A DNA stretch of 64,000 nucleotides from Gracilimonas mengyeensis. GTDB lineage: Bacteria; Bacteroidota; Rhodothermia; Balneolales; Balneolaceae. The stretch spans positions 124,001-188,000 of the forward strand of contig NZ_FXTP01000003.1 in the NCBI RefSeq assembly GCF_900182705.1. Direction: 5' to 3'. Position 1 is the first letter of the stretch. Every line of letters begins with the position of its first letter. A program made the position numbers and the translations under genes. The notes beneath the pieces were generated by a model. That model worked only from the letters and a program-made list of their open reading frames with translations, was not told the origin of the DNA and did not search any database. This document shows, one piece after another, positions 1 through 43,710 of the stretch.

Positions 1-1284
1 GTTTTCTACATCGTTAATCACAGCTAAACCAACCGGGTTGGGGCCCTGGCTACTGCCTTCAAAATCGCCCAGCGGGCCTGCGTATTGTCCATCCCGAAAT
101 ACGGGTACGGTAGGAGACATTTCCAATGCACCAACAATGCGGTTATCCGTGGCAAATGGATAATCTTCAGGGATAGAAGCCTGATTGGTTCGGGCCAAAG
201 AAAGACGGTTACCAATTTTGAAGTAATCGTTGATCTTATAATCAGCGTTAGCTTGTATTGAGCCGCGTTCAAAACCACTGCCCACCAACACTCCTTCCTG
301 GTCGTAATATCCACCCGATACGAAATATTGCAAGTCCTCAGTTCCACCTGATACCGACAGGTTATACTTTTGCATCACCGCATTTTGTGATAATTCATCC
401 TGCCAGTCGGTTCCTTTTCCTAATGAAGAAGGGTTATCCCAATACGTTTCCAAACCGGAGGCTGCGCGGGCCTCATTCTGCATGCGGGCATATTGCTCGG
501 CATTCAACATGTCCATCTTATTAGACAGCTGCTGGATACCACGAGTCATGTCAAAATCAATTTGAGCTTCCCCAATCGTACCGCCTTTGGTAGTTACAAG
601 CACTACACCGTTGGCTCCATTGGCCCCATAAATAGCGGCAGCTGAAGCATCCTTAAGAATTTCTATCGATTTGATATTCTGCGGGTTGATGGAGTTGATA
701 TCCCCGCCAGGGATCCCATCTATAACATATAATGGACTACTATTCCCAATGGTACCAATACCTCGAACATCTACCGAAATACCCGCGCCGGGAGCACCAC
801 TATTCTGCGTAATATTTACACCAGCCACCCGACCTTGCAGCGCCTGGTTTAAATTTGTTGTGGTTTGCTGGGCTATTTCAGTTGCCGGAACGGAGGATAT
901 AGAAGAAGTCACTTCCATACGTCTTTGGGTTCCATACCCAACCACCACAACTTCAGACAGGCTGCCGATACGCTCAACCAGTTTAACGTCTAAATATTCT
1001 TGTGATCCTACCGTAATTTCTTGTGTTTCGAAACCTACGTAAGAAAAAACAAGAATTGTATTTGAACCTGGCACCCTGAGGGTAAATTCCCCGTCAAGAT
1101 TTGTTGTAGTTCCATTTAATGTCCCTTTTATGACGATGTTTACCCCAGGCAAGGTTTCCCCTGATTCACTATCAGTCACCCTTCCCGTAACGGTAATTTC
1201 ACTATTTTCACTGTCCTGTCCATGTGCATCAACAGCCATACCCCATACCAATAGGATAAACAGTAAATTGCCTAATATTCGCAT
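1..1284 (-). CDS. SusC/RagA-family TonB-linked outer membrane receptor (N-terminal part, cut by window edge)
   Basis: The minus-strand reading frame stays open for 428 codons from the ATG at 1284 to the window edge, so the C-terminal barrel is missing. It starts with a signal peptide (MRILGNLLFILLVWGMAVDA). A carboxypeptidase-regulatory-like domain follows (about residues 28-95, GRVTDSESGETLPGVNI... ending FSYVGFETQ), then the linker LSEVVVVGYGTQ and the plug domain (ALQGRVAGVNI, VDVRGIGTIGNSSPLYVIDG, EILKDASAAAIYGANGANGV). These are hallmark SusC/RagA motifs. Family members import oligosaccharides or other large nutrients across the outer membrane with a SusD lipoprotein and TonB energy; the SusD partner would lie beyond the window. 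Its promoter region is shared with the divergent sugar-metabolism genes, so a carbohydrate substrate is plausible. Substrate unknown. Confidence 0.95.
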   Translation of the reverse strand, partial: MRILGNLLFILLVWGMAVDAHGQDSENSEITVTGRVTDSESGETLPGVNIVIKGTLNGTTTNLDGEFTLRVPGSNTILVFSYVGFETQEITVGSQEYLDVKLVERIGSLSEVVVVGYGTQRRMEVTSSISSVPATEIAQQTTTNLNQALQGRVAGVNITQNSGAPGAGISVDVRGIGTIGNSSPLYVIDGIPGGDINSINPQNIKSIEILKDASAAAIYGANGANGVVLVTTKGGTIGEAQIDFDMTRGIQQLSNKMDMLNAEQYARMQNEARAASGLETYWDNPSSLGKGTDWQDELSQNAVMQKYNLSVSGGTEDLQYFVSGGYYDQEGVLVGSGFERGSIQANADYKINDYFKIGNRLSLARTNQASIPEDYPFATDNRIVGALEMSPTVPVFRDGQYAGPLGDFEGSSQGPNPVGLAVINDVEN

Positions 1285-29167: not shown

Positions 29168-30707
29168 CTATTTCAACAATACCATACGCTTGGTTTGCAC
29201 GAAGTCCTCCGCCTTGATTCGGTACAGGTACATACCGCTGGATAGCATCGAGGCATCAAAGCGTACTTCATGGAACCCGGCGGACTGCTCTTCGTTCACC
29301 AGTGTTTGCACCAGCTGACCCATTACGTTAAAGATTTCTACCCGCACTTCTGATTTTTCCGGCAGGGCATAACGGATGGTCGTCTCTGGGTTAAAGGGGT
29401 TGGGATAGTTTTGCAAGAGTTGGTACTCCTCAGGGGTACCTAATAGTTCCAGTTCTGTAAGCGCCTGGACTATTACCCGAGTGGTAGAACTTTGCAATTG
29501 TAGCTTCCGCCCACCTTCCAATACCGTTTCACGGGGAGGAGCCTGCCCTCCGTATTCGGTAAGCTTAAATACTTCCTTGCTGGTCTGATCCGAAAAACCC
29601 AAAGTGAAAGTGACAGGAACTTCTGCCTGCTGTACCTTGATGGTAATACTGTCCCGTGCCAGCCACCAACGGTCACTATTCAAACGAGCATCAAAAGCAC
29701 CTTTAGGCGGAAGAGGAGGAAGTATAACTTGCTGGTTATCTATCGCTTTTTCCATTTCAGCACCGGTCTCACCAAAGTACAAGGTCATACCCTGTTGGTC
29801 TCCGCTATGCACCTGAACCTGATGGTAGCTGCCTGACAAGACTTGTTGCAGGCTTGGCTCTTTACTTTTGGCCAATGGTGCGGGCTCAATACTCACTGTG
29901 CCGGCATCGCTGGTGCGCAGCCAATAGCCATGCCCACCATTCAGCCCGTCGGCCGATTGATATACCCCGTTAAAACCAAACATCGTTCCCGGAATTACAA
30001 TCCCTTCAGAATCCTCTAACTGGCAGGACGGGATACAACCAGCATGACCAGATATCAAGTTCCATCCTTCTTGCAAAGTACGATCAACTTTATCTACCGT
30101 TGTACCGGTATAGCTCACCTCTTCGGATTGGCTAAATCGCAGCCAGTAGCCCTCACCCATGCCCAATGTATCGCTGACGTAATAGGTGCCATCAAACCCA
30201 AACAGAGTGCCAGAAATAGCATCACTGAATAGTTCACTAAAGTGTTCGTGATCCTCTTCTAAAGCGAGGCCAACCAGGTTCCAGCCCTCTGCATAACTGA
30301 CCTCGTATTCTTCAAATAAGCTATGAGTAATGACGATATCTGTCAGTTCATCTTCGGATATATTCACATGGGAATACTCAGCCATATTTAATCGGTTAAT
30401 GCCTGCACTGGGAGAACTTAACGTAACCACGCCTTCTTCGGGAAGGGCCGATGGATCCCAGGAAATACTCAAACTGGTCGTGCCCGAGGCTCCGCGCAGT
30501 CGCACCGGCCACTCGGTGGAAGTGGATGTGGTAGGTTGGTAAAAACGCAGGTAATCTTCATCGCCAAAACGGATGCGTGCATCAAAAGCACCAGTGGGCG
30601 GGGCCGGCGGGGCATATTGGTCGTAAGCCGCATCGTAACCGGTGGTAGCATCGGGGGCAGTTCCAATGGTGAGCGTGGTCGTGTGGTCCACATCATCGGA
30701 GACGGTG
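29168..30707. repeat. 1.54 kb duplicated 3' module, copy 2
   Basis: Copy of 20381-21920; see that entry. First difference at 30393 (C versus T at 21606). Differences further on include synonymous and amino-acid changes, for example ALPEEGVVTLSS here versus ALPQEGVVVLNS. Confidence 0.95.
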
Positions 30708-33700
30708 AGAACCAGGGTAAAATCATCATTCAATTCTTCGTCATCAACAATGTTTAAGTCATCTGGCCAGCCATCGGGAGTCGTTCGTATCATCTCGCCC
30801 CCTTGCTCTTGCCAAAGAACCCCATCATCCCAGGGCGTAATCGTAAATAACTCAGATTCGTCTGCATTTAACCCGGCTGGGTCAAATTGACTTTCTACAA
30901 AGGTTACAAATCCTCTAAGATTCACCGTTTCCCCGGCTTCCGGGGGCACATACGCCCCATCTTCTACTCTTCGAAAATTATATCCCTGGCGATATGTATT
31001 TCTATCATTCCTGTACCTAAGCGACATATCTTTTGTGTAGAGTTTAACCCCCCCGTCATTTACATAAAACCAGGGCCGGTTTCCATCATTATTCAGGCTC
31101 CCATTTTCTTCTACTGTTGTCTGTTCAATGTGAACATATCTATTTACATACTTTGTGTAGTTTTCCAGATTTGTTTTAAAGCCACTGCCCGAGGGCTCTA
31201 TTAATGCATCGGCTGAAATGATTGTAGGTTCGAGGAGATGCTGGTATTCAGGAAAATGGTTAAATACATCTCCTCTAAAAATGACACTGTCCGGCTCAAA
31301 CTGTACCTCGTTCAGATAATAAGCCAGCCTTCCCTTAATCCTAACAACATCCCCCCAAGTGAACTGCTCTATTTGCGTTAATACATCGAAATAAGAAACC
31401 ACATGCATATACATGCCATCCTTACCCGAAGTGTTTGCAGAAGTATCCACCACAAAAGTGTGTAACCGATTAATATCAACAGTTAAAGCCGGGTTATATC
31501 CTGCATATCCCGAGTTCTTCGGCTCGGAAAGAATAACCGCGGTAAAAGTTACATCTTCCCCAACTTTGGGGTGATTGGGGATATCATTAACCGAATTCAA
31601 CTGATCATATGTATTCAGTTCTCGTACTGTGACTTCCTGGTATTCTTTTACCGGCGGGGTACCCGGCTCTGAAAGTATTTCCAGATCATCGGGCCAATCC
31701 TGGGGAGTCGTTCTGACTAAACTACCATCCTGCTCTGTCCATAACACGCCATCATCCCAGGGTGCAATGGAAAATAATCCATCCGTTGTATTTACTTTGA
31801 TGCCGCCTTGATCTGTATTCGCGTGATAGAGTTCTACAAATCCGCTTATATTGATCTCGGAACCTGCAATCGGCGCATCGAAAACCCCATCTTCTTCCCG
31901 TCTCAGGTTATACCCTGTTCGATATTGATCCCATTTATTTTCGTATCGAAGGGAAGTGGAACGGAAATATACTTGTCCATCACTATTCTGAAAATAGAAC
32001 CAGGGCGTACCGGTTGAAGATGGCTTACTATCCTCAACCGTAGCCGACTCCACTTTTACGTATCGGTTTACATACTTGGTATAGTTATCAAGGTTGATTT
32101 GTTGGCCGTCTCCGGTCATCTGGTTCAATTCATCGGTAGTAATGACAGTTGGCTCCAGTAGATCTGCATATTCTTCCATTCCATCAGATATACTTCCAAC
32201 AAACTCCACATTGGTAGGGACTAACTGAACTTCATTATTGAAAAAATTGTGGATTCCCGTAATGGTTACAATATCCCCCCGTCTGAAATCTTCAATCTGT
32301 TCCATCACCTCGCCGTCAGAAACCACTTGCATATACATGCCGTCTTTCCCCATGGTGTTGGCAGAAGTATCTACTACAAAAGTGTGCAGCCGATTGATCA
32401 TATCGGTATCCGGATTATAACCGGCCAGCCCGGAGTTTTTGGGATGAGAAACGATGACGGCTGTAAAGATTACTTCTTCACCCGCCAGGGGATGGTTTGG
32501 TATGTCATTAACAGAATTAAGCTGATTGTATGTATTGAGGTCGCGGATAGTTATATCTCCTCCATCTCGAATAGCTAACTCGATATCTACAATGAATTCA
32601 CTGTTTACCGGATCGTTCGTACTTATTTGAATTTCACCTCTATATACTCCCGGATCGAGATCAATGTTTTCAGGTCCAAAAAACACCTCCAGATCTTGTT
32701 CATCTCCGGCAGGTATCACCCCACTTGTTGGCTCTATATGTACAAACTCCGGCACACTACTTGTTACGGTACCCAACCAAGAAATCTGAACCAATTCCCC
32801 TGGTTCTTCTCCTCCTAATACTCCTAATAAAGTCGTATTTCCTGTCTCAAGATTAACAGCTCGTAACTCCGGTTGACCGGAATCAATATTAAAAGCTGCC
32901 ATATACATGATATCTGTAGCGGCATCATAACTCATGCCCTGCCCGAAATTTGCATCAAAACCTATCGGACCAACCGCACTGGCTTCGGCAGTCTCTTTAT
33001 CAATCACAAACAATTGATCTGTTACTATATCATAGGTATACAGGTTACCATCTCCCGCTACCGACAACGCAATAGCTCCCGCTACGTCAGCCACTTCACC
33101 TATCAATGTTGAAGTGGCGTTATAAATATCAATGATATATAGGTAGGAGAATTCTATATCGGTGGATATCCCATAATACAATTCGTTGAATGGGTCATAG
33201 GTCATGCCACTTAACCCTTCTGGCACATCCAGGCTTCCAAGATATGTAATCGCACCGGTTTCCAGATCGGTTTTATATAACTCATCTCCTTCTACATGGT
33301 AAGCAATAGTTGGATCCGAGCCGTCTAATGTACCACCTCCTGGAAAATTCTCATTTGGAAAACCACCAATTGGAGTAAGAATTTCGGCTTCCCCTAAATC
33401 AAATGAAACAATTTGTCCTGAAAGCGACTCTGCACCATAGGCCAAAACCCCTAATTCTTTAAAATCTATAGACTTTGCTCTTTTTTTTGTCATTCTTGAC
33501 TGGGGAGCCTTACCAAAAGAATGGTGATATTCACTGTTGGAAAAAGATTGAAGCAGCGGCCCATTCTTTGTGAGCTCTTTAACTTTGGTCGTAAATTCAT
33601 CAAAGCTTTTATCTCGAACCTGAACGTTGAAGTTAAGGTCACTACCTCCTGTAACATTACTAATATGTAAGTTTTCGATTTTTGTTTGGCTGGAAACCAT

Positions 33701-36700
33701 TTCAACATTAAAGGCTTCCGGAGTAACCACAGCAATAGGAGGAAGAATAGAAGATGCTACTAAAGATATTTCTACTTCACTTTCATCGGGATCGTCGCTA
33801 TTAATTGTTAAAGTCCCTTCACGAGTTCCTTCTGATTCAGGATAATATATTACCTCTACATCCACAGAATCACCTGGGCTTAGATCAAAAGAAGTTGTAT
33901 CAATAGAAAACTCTGCTACGTCCAAGATAATATCAGTGACAGAGAGTAAATGGGTGCCTTCATTGTAAACGGTTAAAATTTGAGAACCGGTTTCGTCAAC
34001 AAATACCTCGCCAAAATCTAAGTAGGAATCAGATACTGCAATATCCTGAATTCCCGTCACATCAACTGTAGCTTCTATTGTGGTCAAAAGTTTATTTGGA
34101 TCATTGGATGCTAAATCCAGAACCGAAGTATACTCTCCTGTTTCCAAGCCATTTACATCGAAGGTAAAATCAACATCAGTATTATCCCCAGCAGCCAGAC
34201 TTGCCTCTACAGGATTGATATCTGTAATAAATTGTGGTGCTTTGGAAAAGCTAATAGCCAATTCATCATGAACATATTCACTATTAAAAACTACCTGCAA
34301 CCCATCAGTACCATCTGTATTTTCTAAACCAATGGTAGAGGTGTTAGTTGGGTCTGACATTGATTGGAATTGAAGCTTTATTGTACCGTTACTTGAAAGC
34401 AATGCCTGGAAAGTGTAAGAGAATTCATCATTGTCGTAGCTATAATGCGTAATCTCATTAAATTGTATGATGAACTGTCCTGACTCATTATGGTACTCAT
34501 AAAAGATTTCTCCACCTTCGGATGGGTTAAGATCATCCCAAAACATTGCTATTAAATTATTTGGTCCACTCGAATCAGGAATTGGAGTATTCGCAAGCAC
34601 GTACAATAATTGGTCATCAAAACTTAGCAAGCCATTTGAAGTAAGATATGCTTCACTATAAGAAACACCATAAAAAGGAAACTCAAATGGCAAGGTTATT
34701 TTAATATAATCATCATCACCTAAGTTCACGGATGTACCGGTCTCTGAAATATCTACCCAATTAAAAACCGGGCCTCCGATTTCATCACTATCAATCCATC
34801 GATAACCAAACAGGTCTGGGCCTCCCCCCCCTAAAACGACAGGATTGCCTTTTCTCGTATCATTTTCTCCTTTCGCAGGTATTTGATAATTGAAGTTATT
34901 AGATATATCATTTTTCTGAAGATTAGGCTGATTTAATAACTGTAAAGCACCTATTGCGGGAAAGCTAAACTCAAGTACTCCATCACCCGAATTTGCAAAA
35001 TTAAGTGATTCAACTGACGTCTGCCCTGATAATAGTTCCACTGAAATTATATCAGCACTTAAAGATAATGTAGGTATTCCTAAAGTAGTGGTGCTCGGTA
35101 CATTTGAGACCTCTGATTCGTTTTCCCATTCATCATACGCTTTTATTGCAAAGTGATACGTTGTGTTATATTCAAGGCCAGAAACCTTTAACACCTCAGG
35201 TTCCCCAAATTCAGATGAAATCAAGTCTTGGTTTACTTCAGTAGCTTCTGAAAAATTGACTTCTGATATTGGCTGAGTTGAATGCCGAATATCATATCTA
35301 TTAGCGGACCCAACTGTCCCATCGTCTCCCGTAGCAGACCATTTTAATAGCACTGAGGTGGAAGCAACATCTGATATTGAAAGATCTGTTATAGTTCCAG
35401 GCTTGACCGTATCTGCTACACCTACCGCCTGAAATGCATTTAGCCGGCCGCCAGTCGTAGTTTTACCCTCAAGAGCCGGTAGTAGTTCTACGGAATTAAA
35501 TATTTTATCACGGACCGTTTCATAAGAAACTAGATTGTTGGAGAGTTCAGGATCCTGAGAAAGAATAAGAGCCGCCACTCCTGTAACATGAGGAGTAGCC
35601 ATCGACGTACCACTAAAATAAGAATAAGTATCTCCCGGGGTTGTACTCAAAATGGATGAACCAGGTGCAGCTAAGTCAACAGAAATGGCCCCGTAATTTG
35701 AAAAACCAGATAAAGCATCATCGTCTGTTGTGGATGCAACAGCTATTACATTATCAAGGTCATAGCTGGATGGATAGTGCGGCATTAGGTCATTGTCATC
35801 TCCAATATTATCGGCGCCTCCATTTCCGGCCGCCGCTATAAATAGCTGGCCGGCATCGCCAGCGGCTTCAATAGCATCACTCAAAGCTTGGGAATAACCG
35901 CCGCCGCCCCAGCTGTTGCTGGTTATATGGGCTCCCATCATAATAGCATATTCTAAAGCCGATATTGCATCAGAGGTATTTCCCCCATCGGGTCCTAAAA
36001 ATTTTAGCGCCATTATTTTGGCTTCCCAGTTTACACCTGTCACCCCTATTCCATTATCTCCAACAGCTGCGATTGTACCCGCCACATGGGTACCATGCGC
36101 ATCTCCATCAGCTACATCGTATGGATCCCCATCATCATTCCAAAAATCATACCCATATACGTCATCAATATATCCGTTGCCATCGTCATCAATACCATTT
36201 CCTGGAATTTCCGCCTCATTTACCCACATATTTTCGGATAAGTCTTCATGGGTATAGTCTACACCGGAATCAATCACCCCTATAATTATTTGATCACTCC
36301 CGGTAGTAATATCCCACGCTTCCGGAGCATCTATGTCAGCATCTGCCGTGCCTTCTGTTTGCCCATCATTATTAAGCCCCCAAAGATTATTAAACGATGG
36401 ATCATTTGGAGTTACCGAAGTAGCACCAGGAACCGCTTCAATAGCTCTTAAAATATAATTTGGTTCAGCATACTCTATATTGGGATTATTGTTCAATACG
36501 TTCAATGCTTGAGGTACTATCCCCTTACTAACCCTCCATAATTCAGCTTCAATAAGCTTGAATTTTTTGTAAGACACAATTTGGTGATTCTGCTTCATGA
36601 CTTCTCTTGCGGAATCTGGAATATCAGATTTATATTTCACAATCATCTCTCCCGGCACATACTCTTGAGTGGATTGAGCTTCTACATTTGAAACAATAAA

Positions 36701-36757
36701 TAATATAGAAACAAGGATTAGAAGTATTTGAATTCTAATAGATGATATTAAAATCAT
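29168..36757 (-). CDS. Giant secreted subtilisin-like serine protease (S8) with T9SS sorting tail
   Basis: 2529 aa. Signal peptide to about residue 28; a propeptide follows (VPGEMIVKYKSDIPDSA, about 34-105). The S8 catalytic domain (~115-450) has Asp163 in IGVIDSGVDYTHEDL, His221 in DAHGTHVAGT, the oxyanion Asn near 312 in AAAGNGG and Ser385 in GTSMATPHVTG, so it should be active. It is followed by an fn3 domain (~455-560), domains resembling choice-of-anchor-D/ASH repeats, and a tandem pair of ~270-aa domains (ITIRDLNTYNQLNSVNDIPN and VTVRELNTYDQLNSVNDIPN, each ending in PWDDGVLW). The C-terminal ~515 residues are the module shared with the LRR giant. It is likely exported by T9SS and digests external protein or processes the neighbouring giants (inference). 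Confidence 0.95.
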   Translation of the reverse strand: MILISSIRIQILLILVSILFIVSNVEAQSTQEYVPGEMIVKYKSDIPDSAREVMKQNHQIVSYKKFKLIEAELWRVSKGIVPQALNVLNNNPNIEYAEPNYILRAIEAVPGATSVTPNDPSFNNLWGLNNDGQTEGTADADIDAPEAWDITTGSDQIIIGVIDSGVDYTHEDLSENMWVNEAEIPGNGIDDDGNGYIDDVYGYDFWNDDGDPYDVADGDAHGTHVAGTIAAVGDNGIGVTGVNWEAKIMALKFLGPDGGNTSDAISALEYAIMMGAHITSNSWGGGGYSQALSDAIEAAGDAGQLFIAAAGNGGADNIGDDNDLMPHYPSSYDLDNVIAVASTTDDDALSGFSNYGAISVDLAAPGSSILSTTPGDTYSYFSGTSMATPHVTGVAALILSQDPELSNNLVSYETVRDKIFNSVELLPALEGKTTTGGRLNAFQAVGVADTVKPGTITDLSISDVASTSVLLKWSATGDDGTVGSANRYDIRHSTQPISEVNFSEATEVNQDLISSEFGEPEVLKVSGLEYNTTYHFAIKAYDEWENESEVSNVPSTTTLGIPTLSLSADIISVELLSGQTSVESLNFANSGDGVLEFSFPAIGALQLLNQPNLQKNDISNNFNYQIPAKGENDTRKGNPVVLGGGGPDLFGYRWIDSDEIGGPVFNWVDISETGTSVNLGDDDYIKITLPFEFPFYGVSYSEAYLTSNGLLSFDDQLLYVLANTPIPDSSGPNNLIAMFWDDLNPSEGGEIFYEYHNESGQFIIQFNEITHYSYDNDEFSYTFQALLSSNGTIKLQFQSMSDPTNTSTIGLENTDGTDGLQVVFNSEYVHDELAISFSKAPQFITDINPVEASLAAGDNTDVDFTFDVNGLETGEYTSVLDLASNDPNKLLTTIEATVDVTGIQDIAVSDSYLDFGEVFVDETGSQILTVYNEGTHLLSVTDIILDVAEFSIDTTSFDLSPGDSVDVEVIYYPESEGTREGTLTINSDDPDESEVEISLVASSILPPIAVVTPEAFNVEMVSSQTKIENLHISNVTGGSDLNFNVQVRDKSFDEFTTKVKELTKNGPLLQSFSNSEYHHSFGKAPQSRMTKKRAKSIDFKELGVLAYGAESLSGQIVSFDLGEAEILTPIGGFPNENFPGGGTLDGSDPTIAYHVEGDELYKTDLETGAITYLGSLDVPEGLSGMTYDPFNELYYGISTDIEFSYLYIIDIYNATSTLIGEVADVAGAIALSVAGDGNLYTYDIVTDQLFVIDKETAEASAVGPIGFDANFGQGMSYDAATDIMYMAAFNIDSGQPELRAVNLETGNTTLLGVLGGEEPGELVQISWLGTVTSSVPEFVHIEPTSGVIPAGDEQDLEVFFGPENIDLDPGVYRGEIQISTNDPVNSEFIVDIELAIRDGGDITIRDLNTYNQLNSVNDIPNHPLAGEEVIFTAVIVSHPKNSGLAGYNPDTDMINRLHTFVVDTSANTMGKDGMYMQVVSDGEVMEQIEDFRRGDIVTITGIHNFFNNEVQLVPTNVEFVGSISDGMEEYADLLEPTVITTDELNQMTGDGQQINLDNYTKYVNRYVKVESATVEDSKPSSTGTPWFYFQNSDGQVYFRSTSLRYENKWDQYRTGYNLRREEDGVFDAPIAGSEINISGFVELYHANTDQGGIKVNTTDGLFSIAPWDDGVLWTEQDGSLVRTTPQDWPDDLEILSEPGTPPVKEYQEVTVRELNTYDQLNSVNDIPNHPKVGEDVTFTAVILSEPKNSGYAGYNPALTVDINRLHTFVVDTSANTSGKDGMYMHVVSYFDVLTQIEQFTWGDVVRIKGRLAYYLNEVQFEPDSVIFRGDVFNHFPEYQHLLEPTIISADALIEPSGSGFKTNLENYTKYVNRYVHIEQTTVEENGSLNNDGNRPWFYVNDGGVKLYTKDMSLRYRNDRNTYRQGYNFRRVEDGAYVPPEAGETVNLRGFVTFVESQFDPAGLNADESELFTITPWDDGVLWQEQGGEMIRTTPDGWPDDLNIVDDEELNDDFTLVLTVSDDVDHTTTLTIGTAPDATTGYDAAYDQYAPPAPPTGAFDARIRFGDEDYLRFYQPTTSTSTEWPVRLRGASGTTSLSISWDPSALPEEGVVTLSSPSAGINRLNMAEYSHVNISEDELTDIVITHSLFEEYEVSYAEGWNLVGLALEEDHEHFSELFSDAISGTLFGFDGTYYVSDTLGMGEGYWLRFSQSEEVSYTGTTVDKVDRTLQEGWNLISGHAGCIPSCQLEDSEGIVIPGTMFGFNGVYQSADGLNGGHGYWLRTSDAGTVSIEPAPLAKSKEPSLQQVLSGSYHQVQVHSGDQQGMTLYFGETGAEMEKAIDNQQVILPPLPPKGAFDARLNSDRWWLARDSITIKVQQAEVPVTFTLGFSDQTSKEVFKLTEYGGQAPPRETVLEGGRKLQLQSSTTRVIVQALTELELLGTPEEYQLLQNYPNPFNPETTIRYALPEKSEVRVEIFNVMGQLVQTLVNEEQSAGFHEVRFDASMLSSGMYLYRIKAEDFVQTKRMVLLK

Positions 36758-36855: not shown

Positions 36856-37086
36856 CTAACCTGTAAATACTCGTTTACATCTTTTCATTATTTTTAAAAT
36901 CCCTTTTTCATCCCCTTTCCCAGGCAAATCCAATTTATCCCGGTTATGCACCACACAACTTTGGCAGACATAGATCTCTTTCCCTTTTTGGGTTTTCACT
37001 TTTTCTAACTCTACTATAAACCTTCCAAGCGGACGTGGTTTTCCCTCTACAGCTTCACAAAATTCGCATCTATGTTTCTCTTTCAT
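36856..37086 (-). CDS. Small CxxC/CxxC protein, putative zinc ribbon
   Basis: 76 aa with two cysteine pairs, CEFC (about residues 8-11) and CQSC (about 41-44), the spacing of a small zinc ribbon. The chain is basic at its C-terminal end (IMKRCKRVF). Start ATG at 37086 (MKEKHRCEFC). It lies 44 bp downstream of the second Lon-like gene and 98 bp upstream of the subtilisin giant on the same strand, so it may be co-transcribed with the Lon-like genes. Function not recognised; nucleic-acid or protein binding are options. Confidence 0.6.
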   Translation of the reverse strand: MKEKHRCEFCEAVEGKPRPLGRFIVELEKVKTQKGKEIYVCQSCVVHNRDKLDLPGKGDEKGILKIMKRCKRVFTG

Positions 37087-37130
37087 AATAATAAACTGCT
37101 TAATTTTACTTTTTAAGTCCCTGTTATTTT

Positions 37131-39290
37131 TTACTTAGAAATCTCTTCTTGTACAATCATGCTTCCATCCCAGTATATCACTGAATCTTTAAATGCCTCC
37201 CAGTACTCGTAATCCGGGATAAAAGGGACATCACCTTTTTGGTAAAGTTCCCGAGCGATAATGTCGTAGTGATTGCTGGTTATGAAACTGACCGGCTCAA
37301 GATTATAATTGAAATAGATATATACGGAAGCTTCCTGCTTGCCATAATTTTCTATTTCACGGCTCACCTCCCTTACTTTAACCCAAAACAGTTCTCTACT
37401 TTTGTCAATATAGACCTGCCAGCCAAAGTTAAATTTCTCTACAAAACTATAGTATTTGCCTACTATTGTTTTAGGGATAAACAAGTATTTATCCTCATTG
37501 GCTCTTCCCATTCCTTCTACTACATAATCACCCTGTAACGGTGAATGGCCTTGTAAGTCAGCAGGATCTAATACAAACACCGTGGCCAGCCAAAATGCAT
37601 TATTAACCCCGGTAAACACCAAATCTTCTTGACCATCTTTATCCAGATCAAGTACGGCCATATCGCTAATTTGACCAGCATGCATGTACTCTTGTTCTTT
37701 AGCTCCGGTGATTAAATTAAGCCGTCTCACAGATGCCGGGAAAAAATTCCCCACATTCGCAGTCACGATTAATTTTGAAATGCCATCAACTTCTACTACT
37801 GCCATCTCAGTGATATTCAGTGAACCCTCATTAGCTAAATACTGACGGGGAAAACCATATTCCATTTTGACAGGTTGCTGCCAAATTATCGAATCTCCAC
37901 TGACTGACCATGCTTGTATAAAAGTATTTTCCCGATTATAATTCTCCATAGATTTTGACCAAATCAATTCATTGACACCGTCACCATTCATATCGTAAAG
38001 CAAGCCCCGGGGGTTTTCTCCATGCTTTTCTACCATTTTTTCTACAGCTACCTCTCCAAGCTCTATACGGTCTACCGTGATATCATACTGATTTTTAAGC
38101 ACCAGGTATTCTCCAGAATATTCTATACTCACTGGGTTTTGATCTACAGGACCAAATTGTAACCACGCTATGATACCGATCAATATGGCTATTATTAGCC
38201 CAAACACTGCATTTACTTTCTTTTTCCAAACCTGCTTTGCTGTCAAACTGATCAAGGACCTTTGGACGTGCAAAGAAATTCGACGGTCATAAAACAGTTC
38301 CCTGAGGTGTCCTACTCCTTTTAGAATTAAATGTCTGTTTGGAAACCTTTTATTGAGTAGCTGCACATATTCAGTAACCTGCTCTAATTGGTCCATAGGT
38401 ACCACCATCACCTGCACCCAAGAGAAAAAAGCAGCATGTACTTTTTCTCTTAGTCCCTTTTCCTCAACTGGCAATACCTTTCCATCTTCATCTATATCAC
38501 CCGTAACTGCCATACTTGGGTTAAGCTTAAAATATTCTCGGCTATTCTCCCCTTGAAGCATTTCACAATAAAATAGTCCGGACAGTGCTAAATTAGCTGA
38601 ATGACCTGCATGCCAGGCGTGGTTTAGCTCAAAAGAAGCTGTGGAACTCCAATATTTGGTTCTCACACCGTTTTCCTGAAAAAGTTTGCCTGCAGCCTTT
38701 GCTGCTCTTTGACCTATTTTTCCTGCATCTGCACCAATCACTCCAAATAAGGGTTTTATCTCATATTTTGACCTCCGAGCTTCCCCTACTAATTGTACTT
38801 CAAGTTTTCTCAAACGCCCCCGAGTATTCTTAGCTCCACCGCCTCTTACCACTGGAATAAAAACCTTTCCCTCTTCCGACTGAGTTTGTCTACCTGATTT
38901 TTCTTTCAGAACCAAGGCATTATCATCTGTAAATCGTTCTACTCCGAGCCATTCATTCAGGTAATGAAGTCCCTGCCGTAAATAATCTATTTTTTGTGCA
39001 AGTAACTCATCCTGTTTCAGCTCTTGCACCTTTTCAACTACCTGCTCAATCTTTTTAATCTGTACTTCAAATTCATCCGGGTGCATTCCAGTGAATAATA
39101 ATGGTGATTTCATCCATGGAAATTCGTGAAAAAGCTGAATCAGATAAGAATCAAAACTGGAATAGTGGCCCCGAACGCTGTTAACAAATTCCAGGATTAA
39201 GTATAACTGATCCCATTCTGAAAACGATTGCAGTAGTTCATGGTGTATGCGCTCATAAAGTTCTTCTACCCGAATTGGATCTGGTAACAT
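37131..39290 (-). CDS. Membrane Lon/S16-like protease domain protein with extracytoplasmic FG-GAP-like domain (paralogue 2)
   Basis: 719 aa without a signal peptide. Residues 1-130 form a helical domain of unknown type (LLFTGMHPDEF). Residues ~140-335 match the Lon (S16) proteolytic domain: FGVIGADAGKIG, then Ser231 in WHAGHSANLALSGLFYCE (the Lon PSAG serine position), AVTGDIDEDGKVLPV and GLREKVHAAFF. The position of the Lon catalytic lysine seems to hold Arg281, with Lys283 two residues later, so activity is uncertain. KQVWKKK precedes one transmembrane helix (~360-378), which predicts N-terminus inside and C-terminus outside. The outer part has FG-GAP-like calcium loops DMNGDGVNE and DLDKDGQED. 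Paralogue of the next gene upstream. Confidence 0.75.
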   Translation of the reverse strand: MLPDPIRVEELYERIHHELLQSFSEWDQLYLILEFVNSVRGHYSSFDSYLIQLFHEFPWMKSPLLFTGMHPDEFEVQIKKIEQVVEKVQELKQDELLAQKIDYLRQGLHYLNEWLGVERFTDDNALVLKEKSGRQTQSEEGKVFIPVVRGGGAKNTRGRLRKLEVQLVGEARRSKYEIKPLFGVIGADAGKIGQRAAKAAGKLFQENGVRTKYWSSTASFELNHAWHAGHSANLALSGLFYCEMLQGENSREYFKLNPSMAVTGDIDEDGKVLPVEEKGLREKVHAAFFSWVQVMVVPMDQLEQVTEYVQLLNKRFPNRHLILKGVGHLRELFYDRRISLHVQRSLISLTAKQVWKKKVNAVFGLIIAILIGIIAWLQFGPVDQNPVSIEYSGEYLVLKNQYDITVDRIELGEVAVEKMVEKHGENPRGLLYDMNGDGVNELIWSKSMENYNRENTFIQAWSVSGDSIIWQQPVKMEYGFPRQYLANEGSLNITEMAVVEVDGISKLIVTANVGNFFPASVRRLNLITGAKEQEYMHAGQISDMAVLDLDKDGQEDLVFTGVNNAFWLATVFVLDPADLQGHSPLQGDYVVEGMGRANEDKYLFIPKTIVGKYYSFVEKFNFGWQVYIDKSRELFWVKVREVSREIENYGKQEASVYIYFNYNLEPVSFITSNHYDIIARELYQKGDVPFIPDYEYWEAFKDSVIYWDGSMIVQEEISK

Positions 39291-39588
39291 GCTGTCTGTA
39301 TATCATCTCTTGTTATGAGTTGTGTGAGTGGCTGATCCTGTAAAGTTCGTTACATACTTTTGTTAAGAATATCTTGCATCACTTTGATCTATTCTCCTTA
39401 CACCTCCCTCGCGTAGCAGAATTTTTTTTAATCTTAGACTCTTCTAATCCACATGGTGATATTTTCTGTACGCTTTACCACATTTAGTAAAGTGCCTTTT
39501 TTAAAAACTATTTAAGTTACAGCCCATCCAGATAAGAACAATATCAGTACCTCCAACTGACTCCCACACCCTGTTTTAAGAATGTCTC
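39291..39588. other. Intergenic region between the two Lon-like genes
   Basis: 298 bp. The only structure seen is a small inverted repeat CTTTAC...GTAAAG (39473-39492). Its size suggests paralogue 2 could have its own promoter here. No gene is supported. Confidence 0.5.
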
Positions 39589-41757
39589 CTACTGTTTAGA
39601 AAAGTTATCACCCATGACAAACTCTTCTCCATTCCAGAAAAGAAGAGAATCCTTAAAGGCCTCGAAATAACCATAATCTGGGATAAAAGAGATGTGGCCT
39701 TCATTATATAAATTTCGTGCTACTACATCGTAGTCATCACTACTCACAATACTTTGTACGGACAAATCATGATTAAATGTGTACACTATAAATCCTTGGT
39801 TTTCCACGCCCATGAACTCATGAGGAGGAGTATCAAACACCTCTACCCAAAAAAGATCCTTTTTCTTTCTTATTACCCTACCAACATTGAATTTATATAC
39901 ATCGCTGAAGGCCTCGCCAACACTAGTTCTGGGCATCAATATATAAGCATATTCCTTAGCAGATTTTATATTTTTGGGGATATAATCCCCTTGAACTGGA
40001 GAATGCCCTAAGACATTCTCAATGTCTAAAACAGCTAGGTATGCCGACCAAAAGGCATTATTTACTCCTGTGATAAAAATCTCGTCCGTGCTATCATCAT
40101 CAAGATCCATAATTTCCATATCATTGATGTTTCCACTGTGCAGATAGTATCCTAACAATTTTCCATTCGACAGATCATATTTGGCCACAATACCTGGAAA
40201 ATGAAGTGATGCATCGCCCCTGACTACTAATACAGGTGTATTATTTTTATCTATAGCTATTGCAGTTTCACTCACGTAAAAAAACATTTCATCCATCCCT
40301 TGTTGGCGAGGAAATTCAACATCAAATGCAAAATTACTCTCCCATATAAGTTCATTCGAGTTTACATCTCTTACTTTTAATATACTGTTTGCTGGAGCTT
40401 GCCTACTTAAACCTTCCGCATATATAACTTCATTTATACCATCTCCGGTTATATCGTAAAACTCAAAAACGGGTTCATCTAATCTCTCACTTACTTCAAT
40501 ATCCTCCTCATATTTGGCCGTTATAAGAGCTATTTCTGATCCACTCTTATTTTGAAAAATATATTGATCTCCTCCATATTCAACTGAAACCGGGTTTTTG
40601 TCAATTGGCCCATACACAAGCTTGGCTATAATCAATAATAAAATTAAAAATACGCCAATTACTACTGTGCTTTTGCGCTTTGCGTATGCCTTTTTTGTTA
40701 CATACTCTACCAAGGGAGTCTTCTTATAAAGTGTCAGCCTTCGATCAAAAAATAGCTCTCTTAACTCTCCAATTCCTTTAACTGCTAAATGCCTGTTAGG
40801 GTATTCCTTTCTGAGCTCATCCACATGACTACTTGCCTGTTCCAATTGCTCAACCGGAACCACCAGCACCTGTGCCCAGGAAAAAAAAGCTGCCTCAACT
40901 TTTTGTTTTATAGTAGAAGCAGCAACTGCTTTAACTTTTCCTTTTTCCTCTATGTCTCCGGTTACCGCGATAGCCGGATTAAGTTGAAAGTATTCACGCT
41001 TGCTTTCTTTTTTCAGTACTTCGCAATAGAAAAGCCCCGCTAAAGCCAAATTCGCTGAATGACCTGCATGCCATGCATGGCTGAGTTCAAAGGCGGCAGT
41101 GGCACTCCAGCGTTTGCTGCTTTGTATATTTTCTTTTAGCAGATTATCTGCAGCCTTCACAGAATTGTATCCGATCGTACCGGCATCGGCACCAATCACT
41201 CCAAAAACTGGTTTTATTTGATGGTTTTTAGATGATGATTCCCCCATCAACTCTACTTTTAGAGTACGCAACCTTCCTTTCTGTGAGCCCTGTTGATATG
41301 CCTCAACTACCGGAACCAACACTTCCCCCTGCCCGAAATCCTTTTTACGCCCCCCTATTTCATTATCAAACTTGTAAAGCGCTGCTACTTTTGTACCGGT
41401 TTTATCTTCCCCAAGCCAATTAAACAACAAGTTTAAGCCTTCCCTGAGCCAATCTAACTTCTTTAGAAATTCCTCATCCTGCTTTAGCTCTGGTATGTGA
41501 TCAATAGCTTTTTCTAAATCATCCAATAACAATTGTAAATATTTAGGATGCATCCCTGTAAAAAGTAATGGATACTCCATAGAGGGCAAATAGTCCAATA
41601 CCTGTATAAGATATGACTCGTATTCCCGATTTCTTCCATTTAGCCTTTTAAGAAACTTTTGGATAAGATAAAGCTGACTTCGTTCTGAAGTTGAAACCTT
41701 TAAACCTGCCAAAGTCTCATTAAAAAAATCCTCAATTTTAAGTGGATCTATACCCAT
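39589..41757 (-). CDS. Membrane Lon/S16-like protease domain protein with extracytoplasmic FG-GAP-like domain (paralogue 1)
   Basis: 722 aa, collinear with the 719-aa protein downstream: same helical N-terminus (LLFTGMHPKYL), same Lon-like domain, same single helix, same outer domain. The presumed nucleophile is Ser234 (HAWHAGHSANLALAGLFYCE); AVTGDIEEKGKVKAV leads to STIKQKVEAAFFSW, where Lys284 sits at the expected lysine of the Lon dyad. This copy is therefore the better candidate for an active protease. Basic KKAYAKRK precedes the transmembrane segment (~363-380), predicting a cytoplasmic protease domain and outer C-terminus with DITGDGINE and DLDDDSTDE loops. It follows the 258-aa gene by 97 bp. 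Inferred role: sensor protease acting on the upstream-encoded regulator. Confidence 0.78.
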   Translation of the reverse strand: MGIDPLKIEDFFNETLAGLKVSTSERSQLYLIQKFLKRLNGRNREYESYLIQVLDYLPSMEYPLLFTGMHPKYLQLLLDDLEKAIDHIPELKQDEEFLKKLDWLREGLNLLFNWLGEDKTGTKVAALYKFDNEIGGRKKDFGQGEVLVPVVEAYQQGSQKGRLRTLKVELMGESSSKNHQIKPVFGVIGADAGTIGYNSVKAADNLLKENIQSSKRWSATAAFELSHAWHAGHSANLALAGLFYCEVLKKESKREYFQLNPAIAVTGDIEEKGKVKAVAASTIKQKVEAAFFSWAQVLVVPVEQLEQASSHVDELRKEYPNRHLAVKGIGELRELFFDRRLTLYKKTPLVEYVTKKAYAKRKSTVVIGVFLILLLIIAKLVYGPIDKNPVSVEYGGDQYIFQNKSGSEIALITAKYEEDIEVSERLDEPVFEFYDITGDGINEVIYAEGLSRQAPANSILKVRDVNSNELIWESNFAFDVEFPRQQGMDEMFFYVSETAIAIDKNNTPVLVVRGDASLHFPGIVAKYDLSNGKLLGYYLHSGNINDMEIMDLDDDSTDEIFITGVNNAFWSAYLAVLDIENVLGHSPVQGDYIPKNIKSAKEYAYILMPRTSVGEAFSDVYKFNVGRVIRKKKDLFWVEVFDTPPHEFMGVENQGFIVYTFNHDLSVQSIVSSDDYDVVARNLYNEGHISFIPDYGYFEAFKDSLLFWNGEEFVMGDNFSKQ

Positions 41758-41854
41758 CTGCTAAAACCCTTTTGAACCTATTATTTTACAACACAATTCT
41801 GTTGTAAACTGCACAAATCACCCCGAAATGTGCTTTTATTGTGTAATTATATCC

Positions 41855-42631
41855 CTATTTATAAAAGTAAAATATAGCCTCCATCCTACCTCTAAAACTA
41901 AATGAGGTACCTTCGGGATCTATACGATTTAAAATCACCTCGTCAGATTTCTTATTAACCATTAGAATCCGGGATAAGCTACTTTCCTGATCTTTAACAA
42001 CAAAAGTAACCTCTTCTTTGGTTTGATTTATCTTTACCTCCGAGCCTCCCACATCTCTTAATGAATACAGCTTACCATGATTTACTTTATTCATGTTAAA
42101 CCTAAAAACCGGTATCCGAAGCACTGCAGAAACCTCTTCCCATTGAATATCTGAAAGTTCACGAACTTGCTTTAACTTTCCTTCCTCATCGGTAACCAAA
42201 TCCAGTTTGGGGTTTTGGAAAGAGACAATCACCCGCTCGGTAGTACCCGGCTCTTCTCCATGAACATGAAACTGCAGCGTATCATCCATTTTATTTTCAA
42301 GCACCCTAACCACTGTTTTTGGTCTCTCTGAAACCAAGGTTGCCTTAGTGACTAGTGAAGCCTTTTCTGAATTTTCACTCATTGCAGCCAAAACTACCGG
42401 ACTACCAACTCCAGGGTTTTGTTTCTGTCTCTTGAACTCAAGTGGTATAACCGATTCTTTTTCTGACTTAATAGCATCTAACTCTTCGTAATATTCTTTT
42501 AAAAACCGATATATCTTAGACGCTTCTGCTGAATTCTTAATTTCCTCGGATATGAATGTGCGTTCTTCATCACTCAAGGTCTGCGGATACCTCAGATACT
42601 GTTCTATCTTATATTCACTAACTTTTCTCAA
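41855..42631 (-). CDS. Uncharacterised protein with anti-sigma-like N-terminus
   Basis: 258 aa starting with TTG at 42631 (read as M, then RKVSEYKIEQYLRYP); no in-frame ATG is suitably placed. Residues ~5-50 (IEQYLRYPQTLSDEERTFIS, then SAEASKIYRFLKEYYEEL) have the length and pattern of anti-sigma N-terminal domains of the YLxGxLSxEERxxxE type, but without the zinc-binding His/Cys residues. The rest is predicted beta-rich and contains no transmembrane helix or signal peptide. It is 60 bp downstream of the sigma-like gene and upstream of the Lon-like genes. I suggest a soluble anti-sigma-like or adaptor protein that could be a Lon-domain substrate. The similarity is weak, and no family is recognised for the C-terminal part. 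Confidence 0.5.
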   Translation of the reverse strand: MRKVSEYKIEQYLRYPQTLSDEERTFISEEIKNSAEASKIYRFLKEYYEELDAIKSEKESVIPLEFKRQKQNPGVGSPVVLAAMSENSEKASLVTKATLVSERPKTVVRVLENKMDDTLQFHVHGEEPGTTERVIVSFQNPKLDLVTDEEGKLKQVRELSDIQWEEVSAVLRIPVFRFNMNKVNHGKLYSLRDVGGSEVKINQTKEEVTFVVKDQESSLSRILMVNKKSDEVILNRIDPEGTSFSFRGRMEAIFYFYK

Positions 42632-42690
42632 ACTACTTTCTTGAAATTACTATTAATTTATTGCCTTATTCTGTCCTTATTTGTAGTTCG

Positions 42691-43710
42691 TTACCATCTT
42701 CTAAACCTGCTGAAATATTCTTCCCTTTTTAATTCACTGACTAGGAATTCTCTGACTTTCCGTACAAGATATTCCAACCGCGTGCGATGTTCTTCTCGAT
42801 ACCTTCCATAAGAAACTTCGGGAAAATAAAATTCAAAATGTTCAAAATAGCCCTCTTTAGGTGATTTTTTTACAAAGTCTGATTCTAATATGTCCTTTAC
42901 AGCCTGTAAATACTTTTCAAAATGTATGGGATGTAGTTTATCAGAATCAACATAGGTGGAAAATAATTGCGGTTTCAATTCAATGATACTTTGTTCGATA
43001 AACTCGTTGATTTCATCAGCGCGTAAATCAGATTTTTGATAAACAATATCTTCTTTGATGTTTAATCGGCGAGCAAATGATTTGCGCAGGACAATTGCAA
43101 AATTTACCAGTGAAAGCTTTGCAGAATACCCAACCTCGAATTCCAGGATACTTTTTAATTGATACACGGCTTCAACACTATTTGATATTTCAGAGAGTCG
43201 CCCAGATAAACGAATTTCCAATATTTCATCGGTAATATTCGGTTTTTGTATTCTAATAAAATCAACAAATTCAATCTCTCCGGTATTCGAATCATACACG
43301 CCCCCTTCCACTTTTCCCTCTTCGAGTGTTCGTTTTAGGTTCCTTATAATCTTTGAAAGAGACGGATCAAAACTGCGGTAATTCTTAAAAAGTCCCTCAT
43401 TAACTTTGCTGAAAATCAGGCGCCTAATTTTTGAAACAACTTCTGGCTCCGTCATGACGCTACATTCTGCCCTATCCATATACTCCTCTATCTGAAATAA
43501 AGAATTACCTTTTCTCCCAAATAAATCGGCAATGCAGTCTAAGGCAAGATCATCTACTGAACTGTAGAGGTGCTGCAACAAAAAATCATCATGTTTAACC
43601 TTTGTCCGTAAATATGCCACTGCCACTCTTCGGCAATGGTTACACAATCTTACTGTCGCTCTTTCATCTCCTTCTAAAGCTTGTACCAGCGTATTTTTTA
43701 ATTTCTCCAT
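42691..43710 (-). CDS. Possible divergent sigma-factor-like regulator
   Basis: 339 aa, start ATG at 43710. The N-terminus ALEGDERATVRLCNHCRRVA...VDDLALDCIADLFGR recalls the start of sigma-70 region 2 (ALxGDExAFxxLY...xDLxQDxFxxxW). The C-terminal segment YFPEVSYGRYREEHRTRLEY, with following basic helices, could be a helix-turn-helix. The centre (about 130-250) is not recognised. It is much longer than ECF sigma factors, so this is tentative. It heads the minus-strand series of anti-sigma-like, Lon-like and giant-secreted genes and begins 93 bp after copA. A short inverted repeat sits immediately upstream of its start. An alternative is an unrelated helical regulatory protein. Confidence 0.45.
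   Translation of the reverse strand: MEKLKNTLVQALEGDERATVRLCNHCRRVAVAYLRTKVKHDDFLLQHLYSSVDDLALDCIADLFGRKGNSLFQIEEYMDRAECSVMTEPEVVSKIRRLIFSKVNEGLFKNYRSFDPSLSKIIRNLKRTLEEGKVEGGVYDSNTGEIEFVDFIRIQKPNITDEILEIRLSGRLSEISNSVEAVYQLKSILEFEVGYSAKLSLVNFAIVLRKSFARRLNIKEDIVYQKSDLRADEINEFIEQSIIELKPQLFSTYVDSDKLHPIHFEKYLQAVKDILESDFVKKSPKEGYFEHFEFYFPEVSYGRYREEHRTRLEYLVRKVREFLVSELKREEYFSRFRRW

Follow-up and report, generated by a model that had tools for sequence, protein, structure and literature searches.

The question raised by this locus is how a signal from outside the cell might reach a sigma factor when the anti-sigma factor that would hold it is a soluble protein. The window (the whole stretch of DNA that was analysed, 64,000 nucleotides of the Gracilimonas mengyeensis genome, positions 124,001 to 188,000 of contig NZ_FXTP01000003.1) encodes on its minus strand, in order of transcription, a sigma-like protein (SIG), an anti-sigma-like protein (ANT), two paralogous membrane proteins with a Lon-type (S16) protease domain (LON2, then LON1), a CxxC/CxxC protein of 76 amino acids (aa) and a subtilase of 2529 aa. 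An initial annotation of the sequence had proposed that the first five of these genes form a signalling module in which an outer FG-GAP-like domain controls a cytoplasmic protease that cuts the anti-sigma factor, and all five open reading frames are present in that order (339, 258, 722, 719 and 76 aa). The reading that we favour, with a probability of roughly 0.72, is that SIG is released when a LON receptor protease cuts ANT and ClpXP removes what is left. SIG would be kept inactive by soluble ANT; LON1 and LON2 would be one-pass inner-membrane receptor proteases whose outer propeller senses a signal; the sensed signal would turn on the cytoplasmic S16 domain, which would cut the disordered linker of ANT, the likeliest site being directly behind Leu81-Ala82-Ala83 (LAA); and the freed anti-sigma fragment, ending ...VLAA with the same last three residues as the organism's own transfer-messenger RNA (tmRNA) tag, would be degraded by ClpXP, freeing SIG. 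The features on which this reading draws are as follows (AF2, AlphaFold2; pLDDT, predicted local distance difference test score; K/R, lysine or arginine).

42691..43710, minus strand: SIG, divergent sigma-70-like protein, 339 aa (AF2 model and VIA-align)
43369..43710, minus strand: SIG residues 1-114, sigma region 2-like (VIA-align range 1..114)
41855..42631, minus strand: ANT, 258 aa, predicted soluble anti-sigma factor, with a helical domain at residues 6-55, then the disordered linker and a beta domain at 93-258
42365..42421, minus strand: ANT residues 71-89, low-pLDDT stretch of the AF2 model
42383..42391, minus strand: ANT residues 81-83, LAA, candidate cut site and cryptic ClpX degron
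39589..41757, minus strand: LON2, 722 aa; N-domain, S16 (Lon) domain, one transmembrane helix, FG-GAP-like propeller
41056..41058, minus strand: LON2 predicted catalytic Ser234 (dyad conservation)
40900..40902, minus strand: LON2 predicted catalytic Lys286 (dyad conservation, profile register)
40615..40671, minus strand: LON2 transmembrane helix, residues 363-381, with seven K/R before it and one after
37131..39290, minus strand: LON1, 719 aa, LON2 paralogue, dyad intact, FG-GAP Pfam match
38598..38600, minus strand: LON1 predicted catalytic Ser (dyad conservation)
38442..38444, minus strand: LON1 predicted catalytic Lys (dyad conservation)

Gene order, linker motif and fused forms

A LON2 query matched 16 of the 92 genomes of the same family (G073 by a C-terminal remnant only), and in all 15 that have LON and a readable locus the order SIG-ANT-LON is kept; in G055 a contig end cuts SIG, leaving its last 30 profile positions visible. 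LON occurs singly or in tandem, with two copies in the window and in L039 (the pair in L039 being cut by a contig end) and three in L036. The SIG profile matched 17 of the 92 family genomes and 45 of 244 genomes of the class, a wider SIG profile matched 51 of 394 genomes sampled across the phylum, and the order SIG-ANT-LON recurs in other Rhodothermia and in Chlorobi and Ignavibacteria relatives. One S16 match (L117, E 0.02) was excluded from the LON counts because its sequence looks by eye like an extracytoplasmic function (ECF) sigma factor. The gene-neighbourhood search suggested in the initial annotation thus places homologues of the Lon-transmembrane proteins beside SIG and ANT in 15 of 15 family loci and in more across the phylum.

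The tripeptide L81-A82-A83 of ANT is invariant in all 15 family members and falls within the disordered linker, the only low-confidence stretch of the AF2 model. ANTs encoded next to LON carry an LAA-type motif in 40 of 40 cases and strict LAA in 33, the seven near forms being MAA and LSA (two each) and MMA, LVA and RAA (one each). Truncated anti-sigma domains (L120, L121, L128, L139|5410) and contig-end ANTs (L132|7091, L137) were excluded from this comparison; pattern matches in the truncated set fall inside the helical domain, in L120 at its very end. For L045, L129, L132|4203 and L142 the pattern's first match is off-site, and the aligned tripeptides are LAA, LSA, LAA and LAA, respectively. 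Seven further soluble ANTs have no adjoining LON, their genomes encoding LON elsewhere or further along the contig, and six of them have the motif (LAA in three, FAA in two, LVA in one; the exception is L236). LAA is lost from the ANT that accompanies SIG in L046 (8234-10120), in a genome (G065) in which no LON-transmembrane protein was found. The genome of G. mengyeensis encodes ClpX, and its own tmRNA tag is DNNYSYRLAA. In published in vitro work, ClpXP degraded seven RsgI anti-sigma fragments with XAA or SVA ends (VAA, IAA, SAA and SVA among the degraded ends) and did not degrade an FAA-ended fragment (PMC12203970); the RseP cut of RseA exposes a ClpXP degron (PMC10202637). We lean towards a cut at LAA followed by a ClpX step.

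At 27 distinct loci the partner of SIG is a single protein that joins an anti-sigma domain with HxxxCxxC, a transmembrane helix and a LON-type propeller, without S16; this fusion stands directly behind SIG except in L217, where it lies 1.4 kb behind. A propeller profile built from LON proteins alone matches the first six fusions at E 3.8e-14 to 1.9e-59, and with a helical-domain profile built from family ANTs alone six fusions match, their domain E values lying between 8.7e-7 and 0.024. The fusions were selected by their helical-domain and propeller matches and by the lack of an S16 match, so the absence of S16 is partly a product of selection; no listed protein carried the helical domain, the propeller and S16 all three. 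None of the 27 has an LAA-type motif in its cytoplasmic linker. The SIG scan of named genomes extended to Ignavibacteria, Chlorobi and others, and both in these and in additional genomes of the phylum the two layouts alternate; four genomes (G254, G285, G316, G435) hold both forms, with the LAA-type motif on the split ANT and not on the fusion. Because Lon-less fusions carry the same propeller, the propeller would belong to the sigma switch, on its outer side, and in the split form the signal must then pass via the Lon protein. These natural fusions strengthen the path from propeller through transmembrane helix and Lon domain to anti-sigma and sigma factor that had been put forward for this locus; for the cleavage itself we infer, with good confidence, that LON cuts ANT.

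A quickly built tree of 99 SIGs, of which 47 are split, 27 fused and 25 other, needs at least three changes between split and fused. If only its well-supported branches are considered, two changes of the fusion label are still required; the Shimodaira-Hasegawa-like approximate likelihood ratio test (SH-aLRT) was the sole measure of support, and it is weak for several deep forks. Form labels were assigned by locus, and those labelled split include two L139 SIGs beside a truncated anti-sigma domain, one contig-end L132 SIG and six SIGs with LON elsewhere in the genome. The split and fused layouts appear to have been exchanged more than once within one sigma family, with three changes at the least. 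It seems to us somewhat more plausible than otherwise that these loci represent a widespread class of receptor proteases, in which the anti-sigma factor is soluble and has its ssrA-like LAA degron unmasked by the receptor's own cytoplasmic Lon domain, and whose layout is exchanged with fusions.

The component proteins

The AF2 model of SIG (pLDDT 82.1; predicted template modelling score, pTM, 0.42) was compared with known structures using VIA-align, and the top six chains are all sigma factors (ShbA, Z 9.4; sigma-S, 7.5; WhiG, 7.2 and 7.1; sigma-S, 6.9; sigma-32, 6.8), the first unrelated chain following at Z 6.0. Over SIG residues 1..114 a region 2 fold is recovered, with Z 7.1 and a root-mean-square deviation (rmsd) of 3.2 over 91 residues against WhiG and Z 6.9 and rmsd 3.0 over 89 against sigma-S; DDLALDCIADLF, within residues 1-114, is presumably region 2.2. 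For helical proteins such Z scores are middling, and the structural support for the sigma fold expected in the initial annotation is therefore moderate. In sequence searches with SIG, the ECF sigma factor ShbA is again the best match in the PDB and the sole one in NCBIfam, over the same N-terminal stretch and in both cases far below threshold. No Pfam or NCBIfam sigma model exceeded its cut-off for SIG (for Pfam, also among 14 family and five distant members), and single-sequence PDB searches with SIG and LON2 returned nothing significant. The structural matches and the hhalign register against the genome's own ECF sigma factors, taken together with the anti-sigma-type neighbour, make SIG a likely divergent sigma factor. 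Weak Pfam matches of SIG to Linker_histone and Spc7 were taken as chance, and a link of SIG to SigI was considered and dropped, NCBIfam having listed no SigI match. In three loci of family f13 (L114, L115, L116) SIG has no ANT match and is divergent from the gene of a 551-568-aa membrane protein, which has a DnaJ domain in L114 and is perhaps another kind of SIG partner.

The ANT gene starts with TTG, in agreement with the starts of its homologues. The AF2 model (pLDDT 83.2, pTM 0.68) has three N-terminal helices (6-14, 21-33, 35-55), then the linker and then the beta domain, and residues 71-89 are its sole stretch of at least three residues under pLDDT 50. The window ANT has no hydrophobic helix: its helices stop at residue 55 and are followed by linker and strands. 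HxxxCxxC, the zinc anti-sigma motif, is found in 10 of the 40 LON-adjacent ANTs and in all 27 fusions, and is absent from the window ANT and its family; a scan of five such proteins, ANTs or fusions, gave a Pfam zf-HC2 match below cut-off in four. ANT thus resembles zinc-binding anti-sigma (ZAS, zf-HC2) proteins in its helical N-domain and in the HxxxCxxC of its relatives and differs from them in lacking zinc ligands and in having the LAA linker and the beta domain; because the window copy is without HxxxCxxC, it is filed as a homologue of zinc anti-sigma factors and not as a zinc-binding member. The anti-sigma-like helices anticipated in the initial annotation are accordingly found as a helical N-domain homologous to HxxxCxxC domains, and this homology, with the sigma-like neighbour, marks ANT as a predicted class I anti-sigma domain protein. 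SIG and ANT are very probably a sigma/anti-sigma pair. A Foldseek search with the ANT model gave no match at E 0.001 or better. VIA-align listed no anti-sigma chain for ANT, in a list that covers residues 173-258 alone and so barely tests the helical part; the chains listed are beta sandwiches with Z no higher than 7.4, a fold too widespread to be informative. Weak matches of ANT to Cas4_II (PADLOC, E 0.0032) and VapB15 (NCBIfam) were taken as chance.

LON1 and LON2 are 42-43% identical, as expected of the paralogues described in the initial annotation, and the S16 domain is weak by single sequence (Pfam Lon_C E 0.0029 in LON1, below cut-off, and none in LON2; NCBIfam lon E 0.0012 and LonB E 0.0059) and firm by profile. 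The LON profile aligned by hhalign to true Lon proteins with 83% probability and E 8.9e-6, against 0.2-0.6% for six controls, in a register that sets GHSANLA on GPSAGMA and the LON Lys on the catalytic Lys, the reference residues being those of Escherichia coli Lon. The Ser-Lys dyad is kept in 54 of 57 distinct LONs, both window copies included. The proteins share the dyad and the S16 core with the Lon, LonB and SepM peptidases and differ from these in being joined to a transmembrane helix and a propeller and in having no AAA+ ATPase domain (none in LON1 or LON2 at E up to 1 in Pfam and NCBIfam); Ser and Lys are 52 residues apart, and the spacing in E. coli Lon is 43. Profile searches with three alignments returned nothing significant, Lon protease 2 (8dvh) appearing at E 0.22 and interleukin-4 matches being taken as chance; a first scan of genome contigs with the LON2 query found no relative. 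A CARF-Lon match in PADLOC is weak and covers the S16 part only (E 0.0079 for LON2, 0.058 for LON1). Both dyad-less LONs adjoin an intact paralogue in tandem pairs (L132:145-4199, L139:13653-17755), as if the dyad-less copy were a non-catalytic partner.

LON1 and LON2 each have one transmembrane helix, preceded by KKAYAKRK or KQVWKKK, charges from which a cytoplasmic protease had been proposed. This topology holds more widely: in 53 of 55 LONs the flank of the helix that faces the protease has more K/R than the other flank, and in two the counts are equal (means 5.2 versus 1.3; for L207 the helix counted is a C-terminal one), a bias that puts the propeller outside the cell and the protease in the cytoplasm. 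The outer domain, described initially as FG-GAP-like, passes the Pfam cut-off for FG-GAP in LON1. The N-domain of about 130 residues is uncharacterised and is conserved with LON.

Alternative readings

Several observations weigh against the proposed sequence of events, and some of them concern the motif. L228 (G279) has LAA in a soluble ANT with no LON found in the genome; the soluble ANT of L236 lacks the motif, though its genome (G502) has LON beside another SIG; two of the six motif-keeping ANTs with LON elsewhere read FAA, the end with which the tested RsgI fragment resisted ClpXP; the relaxed LAA-type motif is loose, and its position was set mostly by pattern or eye and by alignment in the family and one further set; and 25 of the 99 SIGs in the tree are in neither form, some at contig ends. 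LON might instead cut ANT elsewhere, in the linker or the beta domain, with LAA as a docking or folding element or as a degron exposed by another protease. The retention of LAA in L228 would suit that account, as would the facts that LAA is merely three residues and that the beta domain comes after the linker; LAA nevertheless sits in the only low-confidence stretch of the ANT model, is gone in L046 along with LON, is missing from 27 of 27 fusions and is the end of the tmRNA tag, and we regard a cut elsewhere as unlikely, if well worth keeping in view. A substrate other than ANT (SIG, the LON N-domain or an envelope-stress protein), with ANT responding only by binding LON, would give a role to the N-domain that is conserved with LON, yet LON is linked to ANT by gene order, by the fusion swap and by the LAA pattern, and we consider such a substrate improbable. 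More doubtful still is an S16 domain that is a scaffold without protease activity in a module that works as a binding relay: S16 is divergent, and of the three LONs in which the dyad was not found one ends at a contig end and two are without both Ser and Lys, but Ser and Lys are present in the other 54, the window copies among them, and both losses lie beside an intact paralogue. A separate observation that does not sit easily with receptor proteases is L043:9245-10561, where LON stops after the transmembrane helix, without a propeller, on an uncut contig.

Release of SIG by cleavage of ANT, the reading preferred here, further presupposes that SIG is a sigma factor, and the remaining points against it lie in this protein. 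For helical bundles, by VIA-align's own warning, a Z below about 13 may carry little meaning, and the best Z of SIG, 9.4, is below that safe range; the ShbA superposition behind it has rmsd 10.9 over 108 residues. Foldseek with the SIG model gave no match at E 0.001 or better, ShbA appearing in tenth place with E 5.0, a probability of 0.69 and rmsd 3.3. In hhalign, SIG aligned with the ECF sigma factors of its own genome in the expected region-2 register at a probability of just 2.9-6.6% (six control cross-comparisons, 0.2-0.6%), and its C-terminal part aligned (2.4%) to region 2, not region 4. A DNA- or RNA polymerase-binding regulator that merely resembles a sigma factor would account for the insignificant Foldseek result, for the middling Z and for the want of any Pfam sigma match in the 14 family and five distant members. 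It would leave aside that the six best VIA-align matches are all sigma factors, that ShbA is twice the best sequence match and that the neighbouring gene encodes an anti-sigma-type protein with a zinc motif in its relatives, and we think such a regulator has a small chance of being the right description.

Related systems and neighbouring genes

As far as is known, envelope-sensing sigma pathways that work by proteolysis have a membrane-spanning anti-sigma factor that is cut in steps. In two ECF systems under the control of regulated intramembrane proteolysis (RIP), RseA/DegS/RseP and RsgI-SigI, an outside signal leads to stepwise loss of the anti-sigma factor through an end recognised by ClpXP (PMC10202637, PMC12203970), as would be the case here. 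In RIP systems the anti-sigma factor itself spans the membrane and is cut inside it, whereas at the present locus the anti-sigma factor is soluble and the predicted protease is part of the receptor; the Lon-less fusions look like the RIP type. The Calp system of type III CRISPR (CalpL-CalpT-CalpS) likewise combines a Lon-type protease, an anti-sigma substrate and a sigma factor, with ClpXP proposed as the last step (PMC11417357, PMC12751052). The protease of that system, CalpL, contains a SAVED domain, with cyclic tetra-adenylate as its switch; LON has a membrane anchor and an outer propeller instead. Judged by its domains (no SAVED or CARF, a transmembrane helix and a propeller instead), the predicted module is not a Calp member. 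The initial annotation knew of no described system with this layout, and none was found in open-licence literature on Lon, anti-sigma factors (also in Ignavibacteria), FG-GAP and CalpL (for the broader topics, among the matches listed), an absence that is no proof.

Two further features complete the run of genes (T9SS, type IX secretion system).

36856..37086, minus strand: CxxC/CxxC protein, 76 aa (CEFC/CQSC), between LON1 and the subtilase, probably a bystander
29168..36757, minus strand: subtilase with a T9SS sorting tail, 2529 aa (Pfam S8 and Por_Secre_tail), possible regulon member

Of the five-gene module first proposed, SIG, ANT and LON are conserved; the CxxC protein has no homologue in the 18 other loci compared, which places it outside the conserved module, probably as a bystander. 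The gene upstream of SIG encodes a P-type ATPase, identified by eye, that has a metal-binding motif in its N-terminal part and is not shared with the 18 other loci. A sigma-70 promoter scan of the module found 17 sites against 21.9 expected, and terminator-like sites number 7 against 4.4 expected (sd 2.1); no claim is drawn from either. The next large gene or genes encode a T9SS tail in six family loci (window, L031, L033, L034, L035, L040), and the next gene of L032 encodes BACON domains and no T9SS tail. Few of the downstream genes at other loci were scanned, and the genome itself has 83 Por_Secre_tail matches; a link between T9SS cargo and the module or its regulon is at most hinted at. Three giant T9SS-sorted proteins are encoded in a row at 15328-36757 on the minus strand: the S8 subtilase of 2529 aa, a protein of 2887 aa with leucine-rich repeats and Ig domains and a He_PIG/cadherin-like protein of 1643 aa. 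Large secreted proteins with cohesin and/or dockerin domains are encoded downstream of the module in L031, L033 and L035, and they recall the control of cellulosomes by RsgI-SigI.

If the proposed mechanism is true, the receptor would itself be the protease, with a shorter path to the sigma factor and a defined candidate cut site, and the module would link the CRISPR Calp cascade with ordinary envelope signalling. The natural swaps between Lon-split and fused layouts provide ready-made experimental controls. Since the sigma family occurs in 51 of the 394 genomes and no curated Pfam or NCBIfam sigma model matches the members scanned, a large branch of signalling would gain a mechanism.

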